Part shown: positions 246 to 15,626 of the stretch, in pieces
Numbering within the stretch: position 1 is the first letter of the stretch
How the letters are laid out: every line of letters begins with the position of its first letter
Assembly (NCBI GenBank): GCA_947589115.1
Contig: CANPZP010000008.1
Location: 1-45,486, forward strand
Reading direction: 5' to 3'
Origin: Candidatus Gastranaerophilales bacterium
GTDB taxonomy: Bacteria; Cyanobacteriota; Vampirovibrionia; Gastranaerophilales; Gastranaerophilaceae
DNA: 45,486 bases
The notes under the pieces: generated by a model
What the model saw: the letters and a program-made list of their open reading frames with translations, nothing else
What the model was told of the DNA's origin: nothing
Database searches by the model: none
Program-made: the position numbers and the translations under genes

Positions 246-377
246 AAAAACAAAAAATATATATTATAGATATATAACATTATTTTATAAAATTGTTATT
301 TTTTATTAAACAAAACTTTCTTTTTGGTTTAATAAAATTTGTTTTAATATAAATTCTCCAATATAACTAAACAGGAC

Positions 378-860
378 AAATTGAAAATAAGTAATTGATT
401 GATTTATAGCCGTTCGCCCCGTTGTGTTTGGGTTTCAGGCACTTCCCCTAAAATTGAAAAATAAGTAATTGAAAGTCCGAAAAGTCCACTTTCGATTACA
501 TGAAAATCCGTTTTAAATCCTTTTTAATTGCCGTTTAATATAGATTTCATCGGGGTTTTAGGCATTGATTGAAATCGGACATTTCAATTACCTTTTTTAA
601 TTACTTCCCACGAAAGTCGGAACTGTTTACAATCCAATAAAAACGATAACTTTCCCGATTTTAGTGGGAAGTATCTTCCCTCCCGTTTCAATTACATTTT
701 ATAAAATTTCAATACTTTCTGTTATTTACATCTGACTAAACTAAAACCCTTAACAGGGAAGATTTTGCGAGAGATTTTGGGGTAATTTTCAACATTTCGC
801 TTTTAGAATACAAAAATTAATGCGCAGGTAATCGAAAATTCAAAAAATATGTAATTGAAA
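378..860. promoter_or_regulatory. Array of about nine TAATTGAAA-type sites in the 750-bp gene-free left end
   Basis: The stretch 246-968 has no gene. It holds repeated sites of consensus NRGTAATTGAAA in both orientations: plus at 389-398, 463-474, 826-837 (GGTAATCGAAA) and 849-860; minus at 493-502, 523-532 (weak), 582-592, 597-606 and 687-698. The first two lie in a longer direct repeat (378-398 and 451-472). A perfect dyad GGGAAG-TAT-CTTCCC is at 666-680. The position between the element end and the transposase suggests transposase or repressor binding sites, comparable to the operator/enhancer region of Mu. This is inference from position and repetition only. Confidence 0.5.
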
Positions 861-3071: not shown

Positions 3072-3791
3072 ATGAAAAAAGTCTTTGTAAAAACAAACAA
3101 TGTTAAACGATTTATCACCATGATGAATAATCTACAAAACCGAGCAGAAGGAGTCCCCGGAATGGGACTTGTATATGGCGAGCCGGGATTAGGTAAAACT
3201 CAAACGATAAATTGGTGGGCATTCAAAAATAATGCAATATTAGTAAGATGTACTCAGCTAATGTCGGCTCGGTGGCTACTATCAGAGATACTTGAAGAGA
3301 TGGGGGAAATATACGGTTATAAAATTTCAGACTGCTTTAAACTTGTAGTCAGAAATCTATTGGTAAATCCCCAAATAATAATTATTGATGAAGTTGATTA
3401 TTTAACAGTAGATTCAAGAGCGGTTGAAACATTAAGAGATATTCATGACAAAACAAATGTCCCCATAGTTTTGGTTGGAATGATTAATGCTAAATCAAGA
3501 TTGAAAAAATTTAACCACTTATATGACAGATTATCTGAAATAGTAAAATTTGAAAAATTTTCAAAAAACGATATTAAAACAATTGTTCAGGAATTATCCG
3601 AAGTTGAAATGACCGATTGCGCAATAAGGTATATTTATACGAATCTAAACAGGTTCCGACAAATTGTAAAAGTAATAAATAAAGCTGAAATAATAGCAAA
3701 AGCAAACGGATTAAATTCTATTGACGAAATACTTATAAAGGAGGCAATTGCAAATGAAACAGAAAATATTGAAACTAATCAAGAAGCTTGA
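3072..3791 (+). CDS. MuB/TnsC-like AAA+ transposition ATPase
   Basis: 239-residue ATPase with Walker A GEPGLGKT (residues 36-43) and Walker B IIIIDEVDYL (D106, E107). MuB, TnsC and TniB proteins of this size polymerise on DNA, choose the target and activate the transposase. Its place directly after the transposase, behind AAAGGAG, fits that role. The C-terminal part (about 150-239) is helical and basic, as expected for the small AAA+ lid plus DNA-contacting region. The gene overlaps the next one by 38 bases, suggesting coupled translation. It could equally be called TniB-like; no TniQ or TnsD partner is encoded nearby. Confidence 0.88.
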   Translation: MKKVFVKTNNVKRFITMMNNLQNRAEGVPGMGLVYGEPGLGKTQTINWWAFKNNAILVRCTQLMSARWLLSEILEEMGEIYGYKISDCFKLVVRNLLVNPQIIIIDEVDYLTVDSRAVETLRDIHDKTNVPIVLVGMINAKSRLKKFNHLYDRLSEIVKFEKFSKNDIKTIVQELSEVEMTDCAIRYIYTNLNRFRQIVKVINKAEIIAKANGLNSIDEILIKEAIANETENIETNQEA

Positions 3792-5310
3792 GAAATTTAA
3801 GTTAGAGGATATCGTTGCTCTGACAGAATTAAATGAAAAAACTGTAAATAACTACATCAATGATTTGTTGTCTGAAAATAAAATATGCAAGATATCAAAA
3901 AATGAATATGCTTTTTTACCCGAAATTATTAACAAACAAGAGATAAAAAGCGAAAGAAAAAAGGGCTTATACAAAAAGCCAATATATCAAATTGATTTAA
4001 GAAAAGAAAAACTTGAAGACATCAATCCTGAAGAACTATTCCCCAAAAAAGATGAGGTTAAATTCTTTAATAACGCAAAAGATTATGATAAAAGAAATAT
4101 CGTAAAAGTATTAACAATATTCAAACTTGCAGGAAATTTAAGAGGAGAAAGTTTAAGAAAATTTTTAATTGAATTATCGGAAAAACATCCTGAATACAAA
4201 ATGTCGTATTCAACTTTTGTTAGATATTATAGACTATATTATACACAAGGTATTGGGGGATTATGTTTAAAATATGCAAATTATGCAAATGTAAAAACGA
4301 CAGTTCAGCCTGAAATGTACGAAGTATTTAAAAAGTATTATTTATCAACAAAAAAATACTCTATAACAACAGCATATAAAATTGTATGTAAAAATTTCCC
4401 CGATTCGGATATTCCCAGCGATAAAGCATTTTATAGGCTTTTATTAAAAGAATATAAACCCGAACACATTAAGCAATTAAGAGAAGCGCCTATTAATTTG
4501 CCTGAATTATCATATAATTTCAAAAAGAAAAAAGATGATAAAAAATTATTTGAAAAATTTATCGATGCTGCAAATTATCACTATGATTTATTAGATAAAA
4601 AGAATACGGAAGTTGCAATTTGTCAAAAAGGATACATTAAAAACCATTTAATACCTTATTTTGAAGGATATAAATTTAGAGATATTACACAAGATGTTGT
4701 AATAAATTACGAAAGCAAAATGGTCGCTTTAGGATACTCAATGGCAAGTATCCGCAGATTTTTATCCGTATTTAGTATCATATTTTTAAAATATTCCGAA
4801 TGTGCGGAAGATTTAAAGTTTGTAGCCGATAATACCCCGATTCCCTCTCTTGAAATAAGCTACTATAACAATAAGGAAATAAAAGAAATAATAGAAAATA
4901 AAAAGCCTGAATTATGGATATTATGTTTAGGAATTACTCCGGCGGAGCTGTCAGCTTTAAGGTACGATGATATAGATAAAAATAACAGGACTGTTTTTAT
5001 TCAAAGAGCAGTATTTCAAGGAGTTGAACAACCTCACAGGGCAAAATATCGTAAGCGACATTTAATAATGCCTTCAATAATATTTAAAGACATTAATTTC
5101 AAAAAGAAAGGATTAATTTTTAAAGATATAAAAATAGAAAATTATGACAAACTTATAAACACGCATATTCACTTACTGTTAGAGAAAAATGTTCAAATAA
5201 ATATAATCAGTAAAAATCTTGGTTTTCATAATATAAAAGATTTTGCCTCAAGGTATAATTTCCTGCTTCCGCAAAAATTAGATGATAATTTTGAGATTTT
5301 GCAAAATTAA
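3754..5310 (+). CDS. Mu-transposase-like DNA-binding region fused to a degenerate tyrosine-recombinase domain
   Basis: 518 residues. The first 60 form a winged helix (KLEKFKLEDIVALTELNEKTV). Residues about 110-245 resemble the subterminal DNA-binding part of MuA-type transposases: compare STFVRYYRLYYTQGIGGL and DKAFYRLL with SIYKARAKYEEYGVAGL and ARTFDRML in the right transposase. Instead of a DDE core there follows a phage-integrase SAM-like domain and a tyrosine-recombinase catalytic fold (LGITPAELSALRYDDID ... THIHLLLEKNVQINIISKNL ... RYNFLLP). The usual first Arg is Thr, the HxxR box is lost and the LGH His is Phe; only the beta-strand Lys and the final Tyr remain. It is therefore probably a DNA-binding adaptor and not a recombinase. 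ATG 3754 sits behind AAAGGAGG. Confidence 0.72.
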   Translation: MKQKILKLIKKLEKFKLEDIVALTELNEKTVNNYINDLLSENKICKISKNEYAFLPEIINKQEIKSERKKGLYKKPIYQIDLRKEKLEDINPEELFPKKDEVKFFNNAKDYDKRNIVKVLTIFKLAGNLRGESLRKFLIELSEKHPEYKMSYSTFVRYYRLYYTQGIGGLCLKYANYANVKTTVQPEMYEVFKKYYLSTKKYSITTAYKIVCKNFPDSDIPSDKAFYRLLLKEYKPEHIKQLREAPINLPELSYNFKKKKDDKKLFEKFIDAANYHYDLLDKKNTEVAICQKGYIKNHLIPYFEGYKFRDITQDVVINYESKMVALGYSMASIRRFLSVFSIIFLKYSECAEDLKFVADNTPIPSLEISYYNNKEIKEIIENKKPELWILCLGITPAELSALRYDDIDKNNRTVFIQRAVFQGVEQPHRAKYRKRHLIMPSIIFKDINFKKKGLIFKDIKIENYDKLINTHIHLLLEKNVQINIISKNLGFHNIKDFASRYNFLLPQKLDDNFEILQN

Positions 5311-5491: not shown

Positions 5492-6118
5492 ATGAACAGA
5501 AAAATTGAAGAAAAAAAGGAAATTTTTCTTGATAATTTAAAAAAATATAAGGAAAGAAAAGAGTTAAACAGTGAATTATGCGGAAGATTAATGGATGCTC
5601 GTCAAAACATAGTGGATTTAGAGGAAGAAAAAGAAAAACTCCGAGCACAACGTCCGGCTTTATTAGCAGACAAGAAAGATGTAACAAAATTAAATAAAAG
5701 ACTTAAAGAAATAGACGAAGAGATTGAATTAAATAATGATACGATAACCGGTGTAGATGCAAAAAATAAAGATGTCCTTTGGTCGGTATATGGAACTTTA
5801 TGCGATACTCAATCTGCTTACCAAGATTATATTCAAGAAATCTTGAATGAATTGGGGCATAAATATGCATCAATCGGCAAAAAATATGCAGATTTGGTAA
5901 AAGAATATATTACCCTCGAACGGCTTAGAGATGGAGGAAAAGATCACAGAACCAAAATTGGCTTTAATTTTGAAATCCCAAATGTTAATGAACCCAAAGA
6001 CCCGCTATTAAGCGGACAGCACCATAAAATTTATGATAATAATAAAGAAAAAATTCTGAAAAAATATGACATTCCTTATTTTGGAGTTAGTTACATAAAC
6101 CATCATTACTATGAATAA
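5492..6118 (+). CDS. Coiled-coil protein of unknown function
   Basis: 208 residues, not recognised. Residues about 1-95 are strongly charged heptad-like helix (EEKKEIFLDNLKKYKERKEL, then EEEKEKLRAQ and LNKRLKEIDEEIELN), predicted coiled coil. The rest is a mixed domain ending in an aromatic, His-rich tail (GVSYINHHYYE). There is no signal peptide or membrane segment. It has its own ribosome site (AGGAG) 180 bases after the recombinase-like gene and an intrinsic terminator after it, so it is the last gene of the left rightward block. A Gam-like DNA-end-binding or accessory transposition role is conceivable from position, but nothing in the sequence proves it. Confidence 0.7.
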   Translation: MNRKIEEKKEIFLDNLKKYKERKELNSELCGRLMDARQNIVDLEEEKEKLRAQRPALLADKKDVTKLNKRLKEIDEEIELNNDTITGVDAKNKDVLWSVYGTLCDTQSAYQDYIQEILNELGHKYASIGKKYADLVKEYITLERLRDGGKDHRTKIGFNFEIPNVNEPKDPLLSGQHHKIYDNNKEKILKKYDIPYFGVSYINHHYYE

Positions 6119-6847: not shown

Positions 6848-8797
6848 TTATGAAGTTTGATTACCAAAAAGTTCAGTATATTGCTCTTTTATATAATTTG
6901 CATCGTAAGGAAAATCTTTGCTTATTTCTTTTTGTATAAAATATAGTTCTTGTTTTTTTATGTCTATTATTTGGCTCCAAGTTAATGCTTTAAACTCTAC
7001 CATTCCCTTTGATTTTTGCGTATCGCTTATTTGAATATTATATTGATCTGTTATACTTCTTTCTGAAAATTTATTTTGAATCTTATCTGAAATTAAATAT
7101 AAATACCAACAAGTATTTGGAAAACGACCACTTCTTGTTAATTCGTCAAACCGATCTATTAATTTTTCCTTATGAGAAAGTTCTATTGGAACCCCCGGTT
7201 TCTTTATTTCTATTAATAATATATGTTCGTTTTTATTTATTTCATCATATTTTTTATATCCTAATAAAAAGTCCGGTAACAAATCACTTGATTGTATTTC
7301 TGAATTATAACCCTCACTTTTTAGTATATTGCTAATTCTTGTATCAAAATACGCAATGTTAAATTCTTCCTTAAAAAGCCACAAGTTATCTTCAATAATT
7401 TTTTGTAGCTGAGTTCTTTCTGCGACGTTGTATTCTTTATAGTCATAAACTAAGGATTCAAAACTATTTAAAAATTCTAATCTGCCAATCGTTGAGTTAT
7501 ATAATTTAGAAAATTCTTCAAATTTTAAAGTTCCTAAAATTTTATCTAATTCTTGAACTTCTTTAGCTGATAGTCCTATTAATTTTTGCAATAATGATAT
7601 AAAATTATTATCACATAATGCTTTATCTAAAAATGAAAATATAATATTTTTAATTTTTTCAGATTGAGAAATAAAATTAACTTTTTCATTTATAACTGTT
7701 AAGCATTTATCATATACCATTTTATTTATTTTTTCGTATTCGTTTAAATCCGTTTTTTTAAATCTTGCAGGATAACCTTCCATTTGAGCAGCAAGAGTAA
7801 TGAATGGTACATTTAATTCTTTTGATTTCTTATTCGCAAAGTTTTCACAAGCGTTTATACAACATTGTTTAAACTCATTAAAATCAGTATCTAATCCAAT
7901 AATTCTATTTCTACTCAAATCAGTAGTAAATTTATTTGAAGTAGCAATCGCAATATATTTATGTTCTGGGATTTCAATATTATTTAAAAATTCTTTTTGA
8001 ACAGTAATATCTTTTTCTGAAAAAATTATTTGAGAACTTTTTTCTAAAGATACGGTTTTGTCTAATATTATATGTTTTAATTCTCCTGATATTTTTGATG
8101 TTGAGATTTGCTCTTTCTCTGTATCAACAACAAGATTATCGAAAGTTATCAATTCTGATTTTTCTTCATAAATTATTTCTTCATTATTTTCAATTTTTGT
8201 TGCATACATGGATAATTTTATTTTAATATCCTTTTTAGAGAGTAATAATGCTGCAAATGTTGTTGATAAAGAATTTTTTAATGTTCCATACTTTGATAAT
8301 CCATAATATTTATCTTGATGAATTTGTTCGATTATAATTGTGGTTCCTGATTGAATATTTTGTTCTTCTGTATAACTACAAGCAACTTTTTCTTGTCCGC
8401 TACTATCAAGTGTAAACTTTATGATAGAAACTTTATCTTTTTCAATTTTTGCCCTCGTTTCCCAGCTAATTAATGATCCAAGGGTATACACTGAAAAACG
8501 ACCTATCCCGAACTGACCAATTTGATTTGGATTTTTTGCTTTATTATCTGTAGCAATTTGTGAAAATATATTTAATACAACATCTTTTGTCATTCCAAGA
8601 CCATTATCGGAAATGATAACTTTACTAATCCCGCCTATTAGATTTTTGTATATTTCAACTTCGATATTTGTAGCTTCCGCATCTATACTATTGGTTATAA
8701 TTTCGCGAAAAACATCTGGAATATACGGATATTGTTTTGTGATAATTTCAGTTCTTATTCTATTTTGATTTGTTTTCCATGAAAAAGAAAAATCCAT
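6848..8797 (-). CDS. GHKL (HSP90-like) ATPase with C-terminal PD-(D/E)xK nuclease domain
   Basis: 649 residues. The N-terminus is a GHKL ATPase of MutL/HSP90/Morc type: N-box FREIITNSIDAEA (E32, N36), G1 ISDNGLGM (D64), G2 QIGQFGIGRF (94-101). A helical middle (about 300-460) is followed by a Shedu/DUF4263-like nuclease signature: LPDFLLGYKK (D509) and LLIEIKKPG (E530, K532). It lies 63 bases downstream of the restriction gene in the same direction, with GAGGT before the ATG, so it is the last gene of the restriction-modification operon. I infer an added DNA-cleaving or restriction-assisting defence activity. All ATPase and nuclease key residues are present. Confidence 0.82.
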   Translation of the reverse strand: MDFSFSWKTNQNRIRTEIITKQYPYIPDVFREIITNSIDAEATNIEVEIYKNLIGGISKVIISDNGLGMTKDVVLNIFSQIATDNKAKNPNQIGQFGIGRFSVYTLGSLISWETRAKIEKDKVSIIKFTLDSSGQEKVACSYTEEQNIQSGTTIIIEQIHQDKYYGLSKYGTLKNSLSTTFAALLLSKKDIKIKLSMYATKIENNEEIIYEEKSELITFDNLVVDTEKEQISTSKISGELKHIILDKTVSLEKSSQIIFSEKDITVQKEFLNNIEIPEHKYIAIATSNKFTTDLSRNRIIGLDTDFNEFKQCCINACENFANKKSKELNVPFITLAAQMEGYPARFKKTDLNEYEKINKMVYDKCLTVINEKVNFISQSEKIKNIIFSFLDKALCDNNFISLLQKLIGLSAKEVQELDKILGTLKFEEFSKLYNSTIGRLEFLNSFESLVYDYKEYNVAERTQLQKIIEDNLWLFKEEFNIAYFDTRISNILKSEGYNSEIQSSDLLPDFLLGYKKYDEINKNEHILLIEIKKPGVPIELSHKEKLIDRFDELTRSGRFPNTCWYLYLISDKIQNKFSERSITDQYNIQISDTQKSKGMVEFKALTWSQIIDIKKQELYFIQKEISKDFPYDANYIKEQYTELFGNQTS

Positions 8798-8860
8798 TCG
8801 TTACCTCACTTTTAAGGTGATTTAATTATATTATAAAAATATGTAATAAGCTAAAACATA

Positions 8861-10432
8861 TTAACCCACAAGTAATTCTTTGACTTTTTGTTTTTGTTGT
8901 ATGCTTTCTATAAATTCATTAATGTTTAACGGTATAATATCTAAATTTTCATTAAATTTAATCCAGGCAACAGATTTTTTCGTGTCTGGATGTATAACTG
9001 GAGCAATAAAAACAGAAAAAGATTTTTCATTTTTATGTTTTTGCTCTGCTAAATGCCTACTTATAGGAATTATTTCATTATGCACTTGGTCTTGGCGTCC
9101 ACACATTAAAGTAACTTCAAATAAACTATTGCAATCAGAATCAAAGCATTCAATATCAGCAATTCCTCCTCCGGCTGTGAATGTCGGTAAACCTTCATCA
9201 TCGACAGAATAGTTTGGGTTAACATCAAGACCTTTAAACTGTTGAACAAGAGATATGCTTGTCAAAAATTCTAACCTTGTTGGAGCATTGATAAATTTTA
9301 AAATATTATCAGAACTATCTTTTTTGTTACATACTTTTAGTAATTCTTCAAAAATTTTATCTTGCGAATATTCTTCTGCGTATTTATACAAAGTTTGTTT
9401 GCGAACATTTGATAAATCTATTTTTGTAGATTGTTGAATTTCTAAGATATTATGATCAATTGTCCCCATATAATCATAGTATTCAATTTTGTTATTAAAT
9501 AATGGATATTCTGAGTAATTTGCTATTATATAATTTATCTTATCTTCCTCAACCATGTTGAAGTCTATAAAACGTCCATTCCCACGCAAAGAAATGATTC
9601 CTGCAATTCTCATCTTTCTTATATATTCATCTACTGCATTACCGCATATTTGACTCATTTTAAATCTGCGACTCTGTGAAAGATTTGTTCCAAGTATATT
9701 TAGGCATTTTTCATAAATGTATTCATCAGAATATTCATATCCAACTTGTTTTCTTAAATTTTTTATATAATCATAAATATTCTTTGCATTATTGTCATTC
9801 CAACAAGCTAAAATAGATATTTCTTTTCTATATAATCCGGCACCATTTTCATCGGAGTCATTTTTTAGTAATTTCAAAACATTTAGTAATAATGGTAATG
9901 GTGCATTTGAATTTAAGTTCTTTTTAAATGGATTGTTCGTTTGATATTTCATTAACGCATTGAGCATAACATCTTGAATCTTTCTTTCATTGACAGGAGT
10001 TTCATTGTATGCATCAATTAGCATGTGTCCTGTATTCGAAATATGAATCGGTTTATTTATTTCATAATATACAAACCCAAATTCCATTGGTAGCTTATAC
10101 CAAGTGTCAAATCTTGAATCCCAACCTTTATTAAAACCTGCTTCTTTATGATTCTGGGGACTATTTTCTATTATGTCCTCAATTTGAATTTCATTATATG
10201 TACTGTCTTCATCTTCAAATATTTTATTTAATAATGGAGTTCTACTTATATAAGTAGGTTTGTATAATTTATATCTAATTATATTTTTTATAATATCATG
10301 TATTAATTCCGATGTTAATGTTTTATTTTCATATGGCAAAAGACAATTTAAAAATCCTGCGATTCTTGCAGGGTTTCGCATTGTTGTTGAAAATGAGAGA
10401 GCTTTTCTTTCAGCATTCCTTGTTCTTGGCAT
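8861..10432 (-). CDS. AlwI/BstNBI-family type IIS restriction endonuclease
   Basis: 523 residues. The C-terminal part matches the catalytic region of the AlwI, BstNBI, MlyI and PleI group: LPTFTAGGGIADIECF (D426) followed by LFEVT (E439), then the ISRHLAEQ helix corresponding to their VTRHYLNKK. Family members recognise short asymmetric sites (GGATC for AlwI, GAGTC for BstNBI) and cut or nick outside them. The N-terminal 300 residues would hold the DNA-recognition domain. ATG follows GAGG, eight bases after the preceding methyltransferase stop. Two upstream methyltransferases agree with an asymmetric target needing each strand methylated. The exact site cannot be read from sequence. Confidence 0.85.
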   Translation of the reverse strand: MPRTRNAERKALSFSTTMRNPARIAGFLNCLLPYENKTLTSELIHDIIKNIIRYKLYKPTYISRTPLLNKIFEDEDSTYNEIQIEDIIENSPQNHKEAGFNKGWDSRFDTWYKLPMEFGFVYYEINKPIHISNTGHMLIDAYNETPVNERKIQDVMLNALMKYQTNNPFKKNLNSNAPLPLLLNVLKLLKNDSDENGAGLYRKEISILACWNDNNAKNIYDYIKNLRKQVGYEYSDEYIYEKCLNILGTNLSQSRRFKMSQICGNAVDEYIRKMRIAGIISLRGNGRFIDFNMVEEDKINYIIANYSEYPLFNNKIEYYDYMGTIDHNILEIQQSTKIDLSNVRKQTLYKYAEEYSQDKIFEELLKVCNKKDSSDNILKFINAPTRLEFLTSISLVQQFKGLDVNPNYSVDDEGLPTFTAGGGIADIECFDSDCNSLFEVTLMCGRQDQVHNEIIPISRHLAEQKHKNEKSFSVFIAPVIHPDTKKSVAWIKFNENLDIIPLNINEFIESIQQKQKVKELLVG

Positions 10433-10440
10433 AATATCCT

Positions 10441-11427
10441 CTAATAGTTTGTTACTAATACTTCCCTTGTAGGACGTGCTTTATTATTGTTAAAACTTAT
10501 ATAATAACTGTTTATTTCGTGAATGTTATATTTTTGCATCCAATTATCAAAAATTTCGTTATGTGTACCTTTGTTATAATCTGCAACTAAATTTGATATA
10601 GCCCATTTTACTTTGTTAAGAGCCAATTCATCAAGTAATTCTAACAATTCTCTTTCTTTATCTTCATTCCATAGTTTGTTATATTCAGAGAATGTGATTA
10701 AATATGGTGGGTCTAAATATATAAAGTCATTTTCTTTATATGTAAGTAAATTAACAAATTCTTTATAGTCAAAATTAAAGAAATGAATTGTTTTTGAACA
10801 CACATTTTTAAAATAAGTTTCAAGTGCATTTACAACATTTTTATTGAAATCAACATTGCCAACAGGTAAATTAAAATCGCCTTTAGAATTAAATCTTAAA
10901 ATTCTGTTAAAACCATATATCAGCAACAAATACAAGTCTAAAACATTTTCCTTGTTTTTATTGTATTCATCACGCAAACGAGCATAACTTTCTTTATTAT
11001 ATTTTGCATAATATGTTTTCGGATATTCTGATTTTAAATTACTTGGAACAACATCTTCTATAAATGAACGAGATAAACCAAGCTCTAATATTCTGTTTGT
11101 AATTTGTTCAAAAAATATGTCAGGGCATGATGAACATGTACACAGATAATTGTGTAATTTTATCATATTCTTATCAATATCATTTAAAACGAATTTTTGG
11201 GCATTTACGTTTAAAAATACTGACCCCCCACCAACAAACGGCTCAACATAAGTATTTATTTGTGTAGGAAAATAAGGCAATATTTGATTAAGTATGCGAT
11301 ATTTATCGCCTACATAAAAAAATGGTGAACGTATTAAATTGTTATCTGACTTCTGTAATAAAGAGGAACTCTTTATGGTCGTTAAAGTCTGTTTTCCCTG
11401 AATTGAAGAATTTATGATTGTGCTCAT
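10441..11427 (-). CDS. D12-class adenine-N6 DNA methyltransferase (Dam/DpnM type)
   Basis: Up to 328 residues. Motifs are SPFFYVGDKYRIL (AdoMet site), YVEPFVGGGSVFLN, and the catalytic DFIYLDPPYLIT. It would protect one strand of the restriction site. The reading from ATG 11427 overlaps the upstream methyltransferase by 86 bases and has no clear ribosome site. The conserved fold starts only at SPFF (about residue 34), so a shorter product made by coupled or non-ATG initiation is possible. It is followed after eight bases by the endonuclease. Confidence 0.88.
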   Translation of the reverse strand: MSTIINSSIQGKQTLTTIKSSSLLQKSDNNLIRSPFFYVGDKYRILNQILPYFPTQINTYVEPFVGGGSVFLNVNAQKFVLNDIDKNMIKLHNYLCTCSSCPDIFFEQITNRILELGLSRSFIEDVVPSNLKSEYPKTYYAKYNKESYARLRDEYNKNKENVLDLYLLLIYGFNRILRFNSKGDFNLPVGNVDFNKNVVNALETYFKNVCSKTIHFFNFDYKEFVNLLTYKENDFIYLDPPYLITFSEYNKLWNEDKERELLELLDELALNKVKWAISNLVADYNKGTHNEIFDNWMQKYNIHEINSYYISFNNNKARPTREVLVTNY

Positions 11428-12337
11428 ATCTTGTTGTTTTTCCTTTTGAACTTAATATTTCTTCGATTTGTTCTAAAGAAATTTTATTTTTTGACGAACT
11501 ACTCTTTGAATTATAAGTGTTATTGTAAGAAACCGCAATAAATTTACATTGTAAGTTATCTATAAGTTCTTTAAATGCTTTTGGTGCATTTGTCCTGCAA
11601 TATTCACTCATATTTTCTGCCGGAGGTTTTAATGCAACCCCCTCTAATTTTGGTTTTTCCCATTTTACGAGATTTTCTAATACATGGTAAAAACGGCTAT
11701 ACTGTCTTGAATTATAAGGAGGGTCAATATAAACTATATCTGCCTTTAATTTTTTTGATAATTTATTAACATCTTCTCTATATATATCAATGTTTTTAAT
11801 TGGAGTCGGATTAATCATTTGATATATAAATTGCTGAGGTATATCTTTTTTATGAAAATATGCCTCATAGTGCCCAACGGTATTTGCAATTTTATCAATA
11901 GAATAAATAAGCGAAACTAATAATATATTTTTTTCTTTTTCATTAAAAGTTTTATTTTTTTGTAAATCTTCTCTTATTGCACCAATTTTTTTTGCATCAT
12001 CTCCATTAAAAAATTTGCCACCGAAATTTTTTGAAAAATAGTTGTCTTCTAAAGTATTACTATTTTTTTTATTCCATTTATTGATATATTTTTCTACTTT
12101 TTCTTTATCCCAGCCGTTACTATCAAAAAATGCTTTGTAGATTATATTATTTGAGTATAAAAAATCGTTTATTATTAATTTAGAATATTTTTTTGCTGCT
12201 TTTTTACTTATTATTGCAGTTCCGGCAAAAATATCTGCAAAAGTATCACCAGTACAATTTTCTTGAATTAATTCTATAATCCAATCAGATAAATCTGCTT
12301 TACTTCCTATATACCGTCTATTCTCGAGATTAAACAA
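11342..12337 (-). CDS. D12-class adenine-N6 DNA methyltransferase, first gene of the R-M operon
   Basis: 331 residues. Motifs are NRRYIGSKADLSDWI, FADIFAGTAIISKKAA (AdoMet binding) and IVYIDPPYNSRQYSRFYHV (catalytic DPPY). The sequence differs from the following methyltransferase, as expected when each methylates a different strand of an asymmetric site. The start is TTG 12337, supported by GGAG seven bases upstream; no ATG fits. A minus-strand TATAAT lies at about 12364-12369, with a TATGTC/GACATA dyad further upstream. Being first in the operon lets methylation precede restriction. Confidence 0.87.
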   Translation of the reverse strand: MFNLENRRYIGSKADLSDWIIELIQENCTGDTFADIFAGTAIISKKAAKKYSKLIINDFLYSNNIIYKAFFDSNGWDKEKVEKYINKWNKKNSNTLEDNYFSKNFGGKFFNGDDAKKIGAIREDLQKNKTFNEKEKNILLVSLIYSIDKIANTVGHYEAYFHKKDIPQQFIYQMINPTPIKNIDIYREDVNKLSKKLKADIVYIDPPYNSRQYSRFYHVLENLVKWEKPKLEGVALKPPAENMSEYCRTNAPKAFKELIDNLQCKFIAVSYNNTYNSKSSSSKNKISLEQIEEILSSKGKTTRYEHNHKFFNSGKTDFNDHKEFLFITEVR

Positions 12338-12435: not shown

Positions 12436-12720
12436 TTAAATTTTCTTCAGTCCTTTTCTTATAACCCTATAAATATAATTTTCAGATAAATCGCAAAGCT
12501 TTGCCAATTTTATACGAGATTGTTTTGTCCCGTCATAAACATCTTTAATATAAGCAATCTTTGCAGGTAATGTTGCATTTTTAGGAACAGAAATTAATAT
12601 CCCCGGAAGTTCGCACATAAGTTCAATTGTTGCATCCAATCCTATAACTGTTGCAACAATATTTAAATCTTCATTAGGCAGATTTTCCATTGTTATGTAT
12701 TTAATCCAAGGTTTATCCAT
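12436..12720 (-). CDS. Mor/C-type transcription activator-like protein
   Basis: 94 residues. The pattern VIGLDATIELMCELPGILISVPKNATLPAKIAYIKDVYDG followed by a helix-turn-helix (IKLAKLCDLSENYIYRVIRKGL) resembles the Mor family of Mu-like phages, which activate middle transcription as dimers with a C-terminal HTH. It starts two bases after the right transposase stop with no strong ribosome site, so translation is probably coupled. Its target may be its own transposase region or the downstream defence operon, whose upstream dyad lies only 15 bases past the stop. Family call is moderate: the beta-strand PG.ISVPK segment and HTH fit, but identity to Mor appears low. Confidence 0.6.
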   Translation of the reverse strand: MDKPWIKYITMENLPNEDLNIVATVIGLDATIELMCELPGILISVPKNATLPAKIAYIKDVYDGTKQSRIKLAKLCDLSENYIYRVIRKGLKKI

Positions 12721-12722
12721 AT

Positions 12723-14663
12723 TTATAGTGCTTGTTTTGCTAAACTCTCTTCCGCTCTTCTCTTTTGCGCTTCTGTTAAATACAACATCCGCTTTGGTTT
12801 TGGTGCTGGAGTAACGTATCTAAATTTAGAAGATACCTTTGCAGTATTTTCTTGTTTTATAACTTTATCCATTTTCGTATTGGTTAATTGTGAAATTTTC
12901 GGAGTATTGTTGAATTCGACCTTATTCAAACTACTCTTTAAATTAGCAACAATTTCTTCATTAGTGGGGTTATATTTAGTTGAAATCATTGCCTTAATAA
13001 GTTTCTTTTCTTTATTTTTAAGCGCAATCGCATTTTTATAAGCTTCTTTTTCAATATTTGTTTTTGCAAGGAATGATACAGAGTGATATACGTTTGCCTT
13101 GCCAAGATATTCTTCGGTTAATGCATCAAATACCCAAGCTTCCTGATATGCCTTTATATCTCTGCGAATAAATACTTTTCGTCCTTTTTCGCATATCATC
13201 CATTCTCCCCAATAAGTTAATTGCAGTTGTGAATCATAAATTCCGTTTCTGCCGATTGTCATAGTTTTTGACGTGCGCATACAGAATAATCTGAGAGCAT
13301 CTTTGCTAATAACCTTTTTAATTTTGTATTCTTCCGACCATAATTCATCAGGACATTTACCCTGCAAAACTTTTCCTTTGGAAGGCTTTTTATTCAAATA
13401 GTTTTCAATAAAATCATCAAATAAAAGTTTAAAATCATCAAAATTCATTATCTTGCCGGATTTTATTTCATTCTTTAACTTTTCAGGTCTTTCTGTAATC
13501 TTTCCGCCTCTGTAACCGACAAAACCCTTTGAAAGGAACGACTTAATTTTCAAGAAGTCCCTTTCTACAGGTTTTGTTTGCGCATTATATGGGAGAGCAT
13601 AATGAACATTTATTCCCATATTTACAAGCAGAGCATTTTCTTTTTGGGTGTTATGTTTAACCTGAATTTTTCTTCCGCCTGCAAAATCTCTGCATCTGTA
13701 ATCTTTACCGTTATCTATATACACGTCCTCAGGTAGACCGAATTTTTCAGCGCCATAATAAAACGCTTGAAAAATATGGTCGGAATTTGGAGCTTCTGCG
13801 TGCAAAAACCAACCTAACCATTTTGAGGTTTTTACATCTCGGAATACCGTTACCCAAGGGAAGCAAGTTGTATCATTATGTTTAACTGCAACGTCTATTT
13901 GTGCGTGATCCGAAACCCAACAACTTCCTGCAAGGATATTTGAATAATCTCTTGGAATAAAAGTTGCAAATTTTTTATTCCAAGCAGAATTACCAAACCT
14001 TGCATAATATATTGCCTGTTTGGATATTCTTGATTTAAGCATTCTGTCAAAAGTTCTTGCAGAAGGGAATTCAACAGGACTGATATTGTCTTTTGATTTG
14101 GCATAACCTAAAGTTACTTGCCAACAAAAATTAACAGAAGGAGCACCTTCTCGTAAATATAAACTTTTATAATATTCATAATAATCACTGTTTACTTGTA
14201 TTTTGTTACTGTATTTACCTCGGTGCGACAGTAATCCTGCAACACCATATTCTTCATACTTTGCTCTTGCTTTATAGATTGATTGAACACTGGTGGTATT
14301 ATCAGGGAAATCTTTATTCCATTTATCCACAAATACTTCAAGAGCTCTGCGCTTCATTCCTTTTGTAAAAGATAACAATTCCAAATATTTATCTGCCTGT
14401 TTTTTAGACCATTCGGGAGCATTTGTATAATATTCAGATGAACTGCAAATATCTGTATTATTTAATTTTAACAGTTTCTTTTGATATTTTAGTAAATCTT
14501 TTTCAGGAAGTGAATTTATATCAATCTCATATTTTTTGAACTTACCGGTCTTATTAAACCTGCAAATATATTTTTTCGCAACACAATTTCTGCGCAGAGT
14601 TTCTTCTTTGCACTCTAAAATAACTGCAAGTTTTTCAAGCTCTATCCACTCGGGATTACGCAT
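12723..14663 (-). CDS. MuA-like DDE transposase (right, second)
   Basis: 646 residues, faces the left transposase. The N-terminal Mu-type DNA-binding domain (EWIELEKLAVILECKEETLRRN) is followed by a helical subterminal domain (RRALEVFVDKWNKDF... SIYKARAKYEEYGVAGL), then the catalytic core with D252 (WVSDHAQIDV), D317 (YIDNGKDY) and E367 (TKPVERDF), a Mu C-terminal beta domain, and a Lys-rich tail. All catalytic acids are present. AAAGGAG precedes the ATG. It is only distantly like the left transposase and has no ATPase partner of its own; the Mor-like gene follows. It may belong to a second, nested element, or work with the left module. Confidence 0.88.
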   Translation of the reverse strand: MRNPEWIELEKLAVILECKEETLRRNCVAKKYICRFNKTGKFKKYEIDINSLPEKDLLKYQKKLLKLNNTDICSSSEYYTNAPEWSKKQADKYLELLSFTKGMKRRALEVFVDKWNKDFPDNTTSVQSIYKARAKYEEYGVAGLLSHRGKYSNKIQVNSDYYEYYKSLYLREGAPSVNFCWQVTLGYAKSKDNISPVEFPSARTFDRMLKSRISKQAIYYARFGNSAWNKKFATFIPRDYSNILAGSCWVSDHAQIDVAVKHNDTTCFPWVTVFRDVKTSKWLGWFLHAEAPNSDHIFQAFYYGAEKFGLPEDVYIDNGKDYRCRDFAGGRKIQVKHNTQKENALLVNMGINVHYALPYNAQTKPVERDFLKIKSFLSKGFVGYRGGKITERPEKLKNEIKSGKIMNFDDFKLLFDDFIENYLNKKPSKGKVLQGKCPDELWSEEYKIKKVISKDALRLFCMRTSKTMTIGRNGIYDSQLQLTYWGEWMICEKGRKVFIRRDIKAYQEAWVFDALTEEYLGKANVYHSVSFLAKTNIEKEAYKNAIALKNKEKKLIKAMISTKYNPTNEEIVANLKSSLNKVEFNNTPKISQLTNTKMDKVIKQENTAKVSSKFRYVTPAPKPKRMLYLTEAQKRRAEESLAKQAL

Positions 14664-15100: not shown

Positions 15101-15132
15101 AAAACTGTAAAAAACTGTAAAAATTCTCAAAC
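15101..15132 (-). repeat. Right terminal inverted repeat
   Basis: Read on the minus strand from 15132 inward: GTTTGAGAATTTTTACAG, then TTTTTTACAGTTTT. It matches the left tip (GTTTGAGAATTTTTTGCAG). ACTGTAAAA is repeated twice in tandem here. Confidence 0.65.
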
Positions 15133-15229
15133 CTCAAAAACCACCCAAACGTACGGCGCTTTCTATATCTCAAGCCCTTTTATAAATTCCTAAACTTCTT
15201 GATTGATTACACTGAATTTTGAAGGTTAT

Positions 15230-15436
15230 TTACCCCCCCCCGACACCAAGCCATAATTGTTGCGAGTTTCCGGATACACCTTTTACGTTTGCTCCGTTAA
15301 AATAACTAAAGGGGTTTTCGTTAATTGAACTTGCTCTTCTTGTTATTGTCGGTACGGTTGCAGATAAAATCATGCTTGTTACAAGCAGAGATATTAAAAG
15401 TTCTGCAAGCGAAAATGCTTTCTCTTTTTTCATCAT
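15230..15436 (-). pseudogene. Truncated class III-signal pilin-like protein (5' part)
   Basis: 68 residues starting MMKKEKAFSLAELLISLLVTSMILSATVP: a prepilin-peptidase-type signal (A-F-S-L-A-E) and hydrophobic helix, as in type II secretion or type IV pseudopilins. The body, NENPFSYFNGANVKGVSGNSQQLWLGV, then enters a run of nine Gs (minus strand) and stops at TAA. Stops follow in all three frames, so the real C-terminus is missing; the likely remainder is at 1-210 beyond the transposon. A longer upstream reading to 15544 lacks a ribosome site and would bury the signal, so I chose 15436. Confidence 0.65.
15233..15241. repeat. Run of nine Cs at the end of the truncated pilin gene
   Basis: TTTA-C9-GACACC. 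It is one of five runs of exactly nine Cs in the window. It lies precisely where the pilin-like coding frame is lost. Confidence 0.9.
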
Positions 15437-15626
15437 AATATTTACTTCCGTTTCTGTATAATAATTACTTAATATTTTAGATACCCAGTTTAAAGTTTTT
15501 TTAAACTTACATTTATATATTAGCAGATTTTTTGCATTTTTCAACTATTTTCTTTATAAATATTTAATTTGACCTTTGATTTATTCTTTTTTAAAATAAA
15601 ATAAAAAAGAAATAGCGGAGTATAAA

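Follow-up and report, generated by a model that had tools for sequence, protein, structure and literature searches.

A target selector derived from a catalytically dead tyrosine recombinase (TR) has already been published, namely TnsF of Tn6022 (Faure et al. 2023, PMC10293859), which has zinc fingers at its N-terminus and core-binding domains in tandem, works via TniQ and has comM as its target (PMC10293859). In another role, that of a DNA-binding repressor, a dead TR fold is known from MrpR of SPbeta, which has lost the other catalytic residues but kept K and Y (PMC10516654). Our search of the open PMC literature, which left most subscription papers outside its reach, returned no description of a third gene of the kind reported here in Mu-type elements; nor did that literature describe such transposons in Gastranaerophilales, which is no proof of novelty. 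As far as searched, no dedicated target selector was found described for Mu-like or IS21-like machines. The protein under study, hereafter X, is encoded in a window of 45,486 nucleotides (the whole stretch of DNA that was analysed), belonging to a 1.82-Mb genome of 98 contigs. Its relatives form a large order whose genomes are small and AT-rich and which has characteristic prepilin-like genes, features that suggest Gastranaerophilales. The preliminary description had suggested that X may replace a target selector, and may be a new type of transposition adaptor. The first part gained indirect support from the insertion of related elements at tRNA genes and from module swapping behind a constant winged helix; the second proved too strong as a principle, since TnsF came before it.

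Operon and domain layout of X

The genes for MuA1, MuB and X follow one another on the forward strand with starts that lie close together or overlap, the start of X falling within the 3' end of the MuB ATPase gene (Table 1). The limits previously given for the X reading frame (ATG at 3754, stop at 5310) were correct.

Table 1. Features of the window that bear on X and its operon
Feature	Position	Strand	Evidence or remark
Probable left end of the MuA1 element (tentative), TATAACTAAACAGGACA	362..378	+	Matches the left ends of relatives
MuA1, MuA/TnsB-type DDE transposase, 711 aa	924..3059	+	Pfam Mu-transpos_C 1.7e-13; PHROG 310 2.6e-95
MuB, AAA+ ATPase of MuB/TniB type, 239 aa	3072..3791	+	Pfam AAA_22 3.7e-17, TniB 2.7e-8; PHROG 296 3.9e-51
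X, 518 aa	3754..5310	+	In-frame TTG at 3748
X, N-terminal winged helix (residues 1-58), constant part of third genes	3754..3927	+	AF2 model and VIA Z 9.4 to wHTH domains; common to third-gene types
X, MuA Ibeta/Igamma-like DNA-binding region (residues ~86-250)	4009..4503	+	PHROG 310 1.6e-7; Foldseek 4fcy prob 0.99, 2ezi prob 0.97
X, TR core-binding (SAM-like) domain (residues ~266-359)	4549..4830	+	Pfam Phage_int_SAM_3 2.4e-4; VIA Z 10.2 to 3nrw over 264-360
X, TR catalytic domain, predicted dead (residues ~365-518)	4846..5307	+	VIA Z 13.9 against the catalytic domain of HP1 integrase; lacks Arg I, the second Arg and the LGH His
Accessory ORF, 208 aa, after X in several related elements	5492..6118	+	Homologues in L032, L033, L056-L058
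Mor-like regulator, companion of these elements	12436..12720	-	PHROG 836 5.7e-11; homologues adjoin MuA1 operons
MuA2, second MuA-type transposase, the genome's closest relative of the MuA-like domain of X	12723..14663	-	PHROG 310 4e-81; matched by X residues 86-233

The C-terminal half of X was matched by the integrase profile PHROG 1 (residues 259-460, 9.5e-7), and structural comparison agreed with this assignment. An AF2 model of X built on 23 relatives had a pLDDT of 80.8 and a pTM of 0.46, the packing of its domains being uncertain. Foldseek searches with residues 266-518 of this model returned XerA (E 1.6e-5) and the Tn1549 Int (E 2.0e-5), VIA-align superposed the TR part on Tn1549 Int (6en2) with a Z of 14.1 over 227 residues, and the integrases of HP1, P2 and lambda were among the further structure matches. 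The TR fold, with both its core-binding and its catalytic domain, is thus present in X by Foldseek and by VIA; no sequence match to X was found in the PDB.

The N-terminal half had been described as resembling the DNA-binding half of the MuA-like transposase now called MuA2, and this was borne out: the profile of MuA-type transposases (PHROG 310) matched residues 111-238 with an E of 1.6e-7, and in a tblastn search MuA2 was the closest match, through residues 86-233 (E=1.3e-4, 22% identity). The Pfam family HTH_Tnp_Mu_2 remained below threshold on this half of the window protein (0.055); in the family member L043 the same family (PF09039) scored above the cut-off, at 1.5e-5, together with Phage_integrase (PF00589, 4.2e-18) in one protein. 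A lack of structural resemblance to MuA had been set beforehand as the result that would speak against the assignment. When the N-terminal half was modelled alone (pLDDT 82), its best Foldseek match was the Mu transpososome 4fcy, with a probability of 0.99 and an E of only 0.011, and the Mu Igamma domain (2ezi, probability 0.97) stood lower in the list. By VIA, residues 1-58 of this model form a standard winged helix, which filled the list of matches, so that the MuA part was barely tested there. The MuA-like character of this half is based mainly on the profile match and on the two-domain protein L043.

Searches for other families in X gave no match to zinc fingers among domain-family profiles, its N-terminus consisting of winged helix and MuA-like domain, and none to the TniQ domain at E values up to 1. 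The TniQ family PF06527 had no match in 8 genomes, but control genomes gave none either. Neither IMG/VR contigs nor phage records yielded relatives of X.

Catalytic residues and element ends

The catalytic residues of the TR part were inspected one by one, and the losses and retentions listed in the preliminary description were confirmed. In the window protein, box I reads LGITPAEL (R to T), the HxxR box LINTHIH (R to I) and the LGH box KNLGFHN (His to F); the Lys strand RAKYRKR and Y501 in SRYNFLL are kept. The first Arg was absent from all 29 related proteins inspected: it was replaced by S, T, N or K in 23/23 aligned full-length copies and was likewise missing from further TR-bearing copies (L044, L051-L053, L059 and L064). 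At the position of the second Arg, the window and 548-aa classes have I or Q, whereas L043, L045, L049 and L050 retain the Arg; among the 23 aligned full-length copies only L043 and L045 retain the LGH His. Four copies (L036, L037, one L039 copy and one L049 copy) have Phe in place of the catalytic Tyr. Decay is graded, being least in L043 and L045 and greatest in the window type. The nearest intact integrases (L250-L254), which come from genomes of the same family and share about 41% identity with L043, carry the full catalytic set (TGMRRGE or TGMRQGE, HDLRHTYAS, LGH and LYTH boxes), which indicates that the alignment of X picks the correct catalytic columns. Neither window X nor any other copy has the R-K-H-R-(H/W)-Y set of an active TR; homologues with a complete set, previously named as counter-evidence, were not seen in this operon, no member of a MuA-MuB-X operon showing the full R-K-H-R-H-Y. 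From its residues, the TR part of X is predicted to be catalytically dead.

The ends of related elements were then compared. Left ends read TATGGTTTAACAGGACA in G104 and TGTAAAGAAACAGGACA in the 548-aa class, the latter at about 50 independent junctions, and the right end of the 548-aa class is ...TTAACA; the elements are bounded by TG/TA...CA. Exact 5-bp TSDs were found in the 548-aa class, CCACA around an element of 16.6 kb in G074 and TTGGA around one of 14.2 kb in G064; those of the window's clade were TAAAA (G059, 20.3 kb) and CAAAA (G163, 23.4 kb, best match only). With a DDE transposase, an AAA ATPase, such ends and 5-bp TSDs, the relatives' elements are of Mu/Tn7 type, as observed in G074, G064 and G059 and, as best match, in G163. 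For the window element, neither a right end nor a TSD was found by TSD matching or copy comparison. Repeats of TTTGAGAATTTTT farther out, at 209-245 and 15119-15133, had been considered as its ends and were set aside because the relatives start with a AACAGGACA-type end.

These data bear on whether X could still recombine DNA, either to resolve cointegrates or to integrate the element, as the Tyr and Lys strand retained in the window copy might suggest. Such a role is barely conceivable, given that Arg I is gone in every copy, the second Arg and the LGH His are gone in the window and 548-aa classes, Tyr has become Phe in the four copies named, and TSDs and ends point to DDE transposition.

Module exchange and insertion sites of the related elements

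The preliminary description had predicted that the same gene would follow MuA/MuB-like pairs in related genomes, and this held across the order whether the search started from X or from MuB loci. In 40 loci fetched around X matches, the order MuA1-MuB-X was found wherever the contig covered it; two candidates proved to be other genes, namely an integrase of the ordinary kind (L063) and a fragment resembling MuA2 (L068). Starting from MuB, which was found in 114 of the 192 genomes of the order, a recognisable X lay downstream in 83 of 86 loci analysed, the other 3 having no called third ORF. The same winged helix opens X throughout, and the C-terminal part is exchanged among classes: the core-binding domain of the TR by itself (169-228 aa), that domain joined to a dead catalytic domain (~364 aa), a MuA-like domain followed by a dead TR (508-568 aa, the layout of the window protein), a MuA-like domain by itself (243-255 aa), a different domain called X224 (~224 aa), and a MuA-like domain with X224 (415 aa). 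MuA-like matches at L209-L215 belong to the next gene, MuA2, and not to X. Fused forms turned up in this order only, matches elsewhere in the phylum being limited to the TR part. Window X is 96% identical to X in two other genera (G183 and G104), and the G104 operon shares 89% DNA identity with the window over 5.3 kb, which indicates horizontal movement.

Some copies of X are split or tandemly duplicated; L039, L049 and L050 have X genes in tandem duplicate with dead TR domains in each. Loci L209-L215 are double systems, MuA1-MuB-X224 followed by MuA2-MuB2, some of them with Mor and most with an upstream tRNA. The window element carries defence cargo at 6848-12337 (minus strand), comprising an AlwI-type restriction enzyme (PADLOC REase_II 1.8e-193), two adenine methyltransferases and a HATPase protein; type I-like restriction-modification, Gabija-like and GmrSD-like genes were seen in other elements, by eye or from partial matches. 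In elements of the 548-aa class, a Pkinase-domain protein (2.4e-32; L048, 4468-5616, minus strand) is conserved adjoining Mor at the left end.

Fifty left-end flanks were collected for the 548-aa class, which has the layout of the window protein. In 23 of the 50, the 3' end of a tRNA gene lay within 300 nt of the left junction (37-281 nt), and all 23 tRNA genes pointed toward the element. Random sites in the same sequence gave a tRNA rate of 0.36%, corresponding to a binomial tail of 6e-43, a value that takes the flanks as independent where a few share flank sequence (e.g. L154/L155). The tRNAs were of the Ser, Phe, Met, Gln, Ile, Asn, His and Arg kinds. Two elements with no tRNA on the left had a facing tRNA-Met close to the right end, at a distance of 72 nt in G064 and 40 nt in G152, which extends the rule to insertion behind a tRNA gene in either orientation. 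Pieces of the ends of other elements lay between tRNA and junction in some flanks, indicating nested insertion at one hot spot. A facing upstream tRNA was also present at 17/24 loci with winged helix and core-binding domain only and at 9/12 with winged helix and X224, counts that are softer than those from mapped left ends because they were made in a wider window of 6 kb upstream of MuB. The idea that only the TR module directs insertion at tRNA genes was abandoned: X classes with the non-TR module X224 are equally tRNA-adjacent, so the TR part is unnecessary for this adjacency. The class with the MuA-like domain only (L057 and L058) was likewise rejected as tRNA-His-adjacent, its left ends lying ~1-1.8 kb away from that gene. 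The similarity between X proteins gave no prediction of tRNA isotype that could be separated from MuB similarity, with which it is confounded.

The window's clade, defined by MuB at least 60% identical, behaved differently from these classes. A nearby facing tRNA was found at 1 of 10 loci with full-length X and at none of ~11 loci with the 415-aa X; the sole instance, in G104, whose X is the one 96% identical to that of the window, is 69 nt behind tRNA-Met. The window's own element is inserted not at a tRNA locus but in the poly-G tract of a prepilin-like gene, which it interrupts, and paralogues (L104-L106) give the uninterrupted reading of that gene. Three clade flanks (G059, G099 and L159) lie inside a repeat resembling the element's own right end, and the TSD of G059 falls within such a repeat. 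This clade, which combines the most decayed TR part with a MuA-like domain, shows a weak tRNA preference or has lost it.

Several side observations concern these sites. At 1-361 and 15119-15545 of the window, the insertion splits the prepilin-like gene, whose poly-G tract may allow phase variation; it is flanked by GTTTGAGAATTTTT in both direct and inverted copies, which were found nowhere else in the genome. In G059 (L074, 4839-9367), a 182-nt intergenic repeat present in four copies is MITE-like and resembles the elements' right end; it also occurs in G072, G145 and G014. At L165, an element of the 415-aa class lies inside a TR gene, as judged by eye from the flank.

The preliminary description had also raised end synapsis. 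X would then be an end-synapsis factor or transposition activator whose MuA-like domain, of a kind that binds transposon ends, binds the element ends and helps MuA1 to assemble, the tRNA preference coming from MuA1/MuB or the host locus; the occurrence of tRNA adjacency with differing C-terminal modules and the confounding of X with MuB similarity would fit. We regard this as unlikely, since several X classes lack the MuA-like domain entirely, so that X in general cannot act by binding ends with this domain, and since target selectors typically exchange their recognition modules. Less probable still is that X regulates or represses transcription of the element with its dead TR as operator binder. 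MrpR (YopR) of SPbeta, which likewise retains K and Y (PMC10516654), offers a model for this, YopR and SroF structures are among the fold matches of X, and X begins with a winged helix; against it, X of every class stands directly after MuB in the transposition operon, the elements already have a regulator of their own in the Mor-like protein, and repression leaves both the module swapping and the tRNA pattern unexplained.

Proposed role of X and comparison with known systems

We favour the reading that X is a DNA-binding target-selector subunit of a Mu/Tn7-like transposon and probably chooses its landing place. This is the simplest account of a protein that is always co-encoded with transposase and ATPase, has a constant adaptor-like domain and swapped DNA-binding modules, has shed catalysis and accompanies a strong preference for safe sites. 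In the proposed mechanism, MuA1, the DDE transposase, would cut and join DNA, MuB, the AAA+ ATPase, would bridge to the target, and X, probably made by translation coupled with that of MuB, would grip DNA and tell MuB/MuA where to insert. The winged helix may serve as a constant adaptor whose partner is probably MuB or MuA, and the C-terminal module would recognise DNA; in TR-bearing forms this module may be an exapted integrase whose core-binding and catalytic domains, their chemistry lost, still clasp DNA. The place recognised in the sister classes would be the 3' side of tRNA genes. The weak link of this proposal is the causal one: we infer that X, rather than MuA or MuB, makes the tRNA choice and that X contacts MuB, and the preference could lie in MuA1 or MuB, X and MuB similarity being inseparable.

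A wider and more tentative idea, for which we hold limited confidence, is that a TniQ-free lineage of modular selectors for MuA/MuB-type transposons exists in gut Melainabacteria. Its constant winged helix and interchangeable modules (a dead integrase or the core-binding domain alone) might send the element behind tRNA genes, and a MuA-type end-binding domain in the window's clade might have redirected insertion away from them, perhaps to end-like repeats. If X is a target selector, dead integrases have been adopted as aiming devices by DDE transposons more than once, and the module swaps found in nature across a whole bacterial order reveal how aiming evolves and might be of use in genome engineering. 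Because restriction-modification genes and others for defence travel on these elements, the aim also decides where defence islands grow.

Among described proteins, MuA of phage Mu (Ibeta/Igamma, PDB 4fcy and 2ezi) shares fold and sequence family with X residues ~86-250, whereas X lacks the DDE core and has a TR fold in its place. The fold of residues 266-518 is that of the Tn1549/Tn916-type, XerA and phage integrases, which, unlike X, have intact catalytic residues. MrpR of SPbeta and SroF of phi3T resemble X as TR folds that bind DNA without catalysis, but they stand alone as repressors outside any transposition operon. Tn7-like TnsD/TniQ systems and tRNA-targeting CASTs insert, as relatives of the window element do, at a safe site next to an essential gene, for example one that encodes a tRNA; the TniQ domain is absent from X and the selector proteins are unrelated. 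TnsF of Tn6022, also found in the Tsy transposon, is like X a catalytically dead, TR-derived protein encoded in a DDE and AAA transposition operon. The two differ at the N-terminus, X having a winged helix and a MuA-like domain where TnsF has zinc fingers, and in target, which is comM for TnsF and a pilin-like gene (window) or the region behind tRNA genes (relatives) for X. On this comparison, X appears analogous to TnsF, with different partners, a different N-terminus and a different target.
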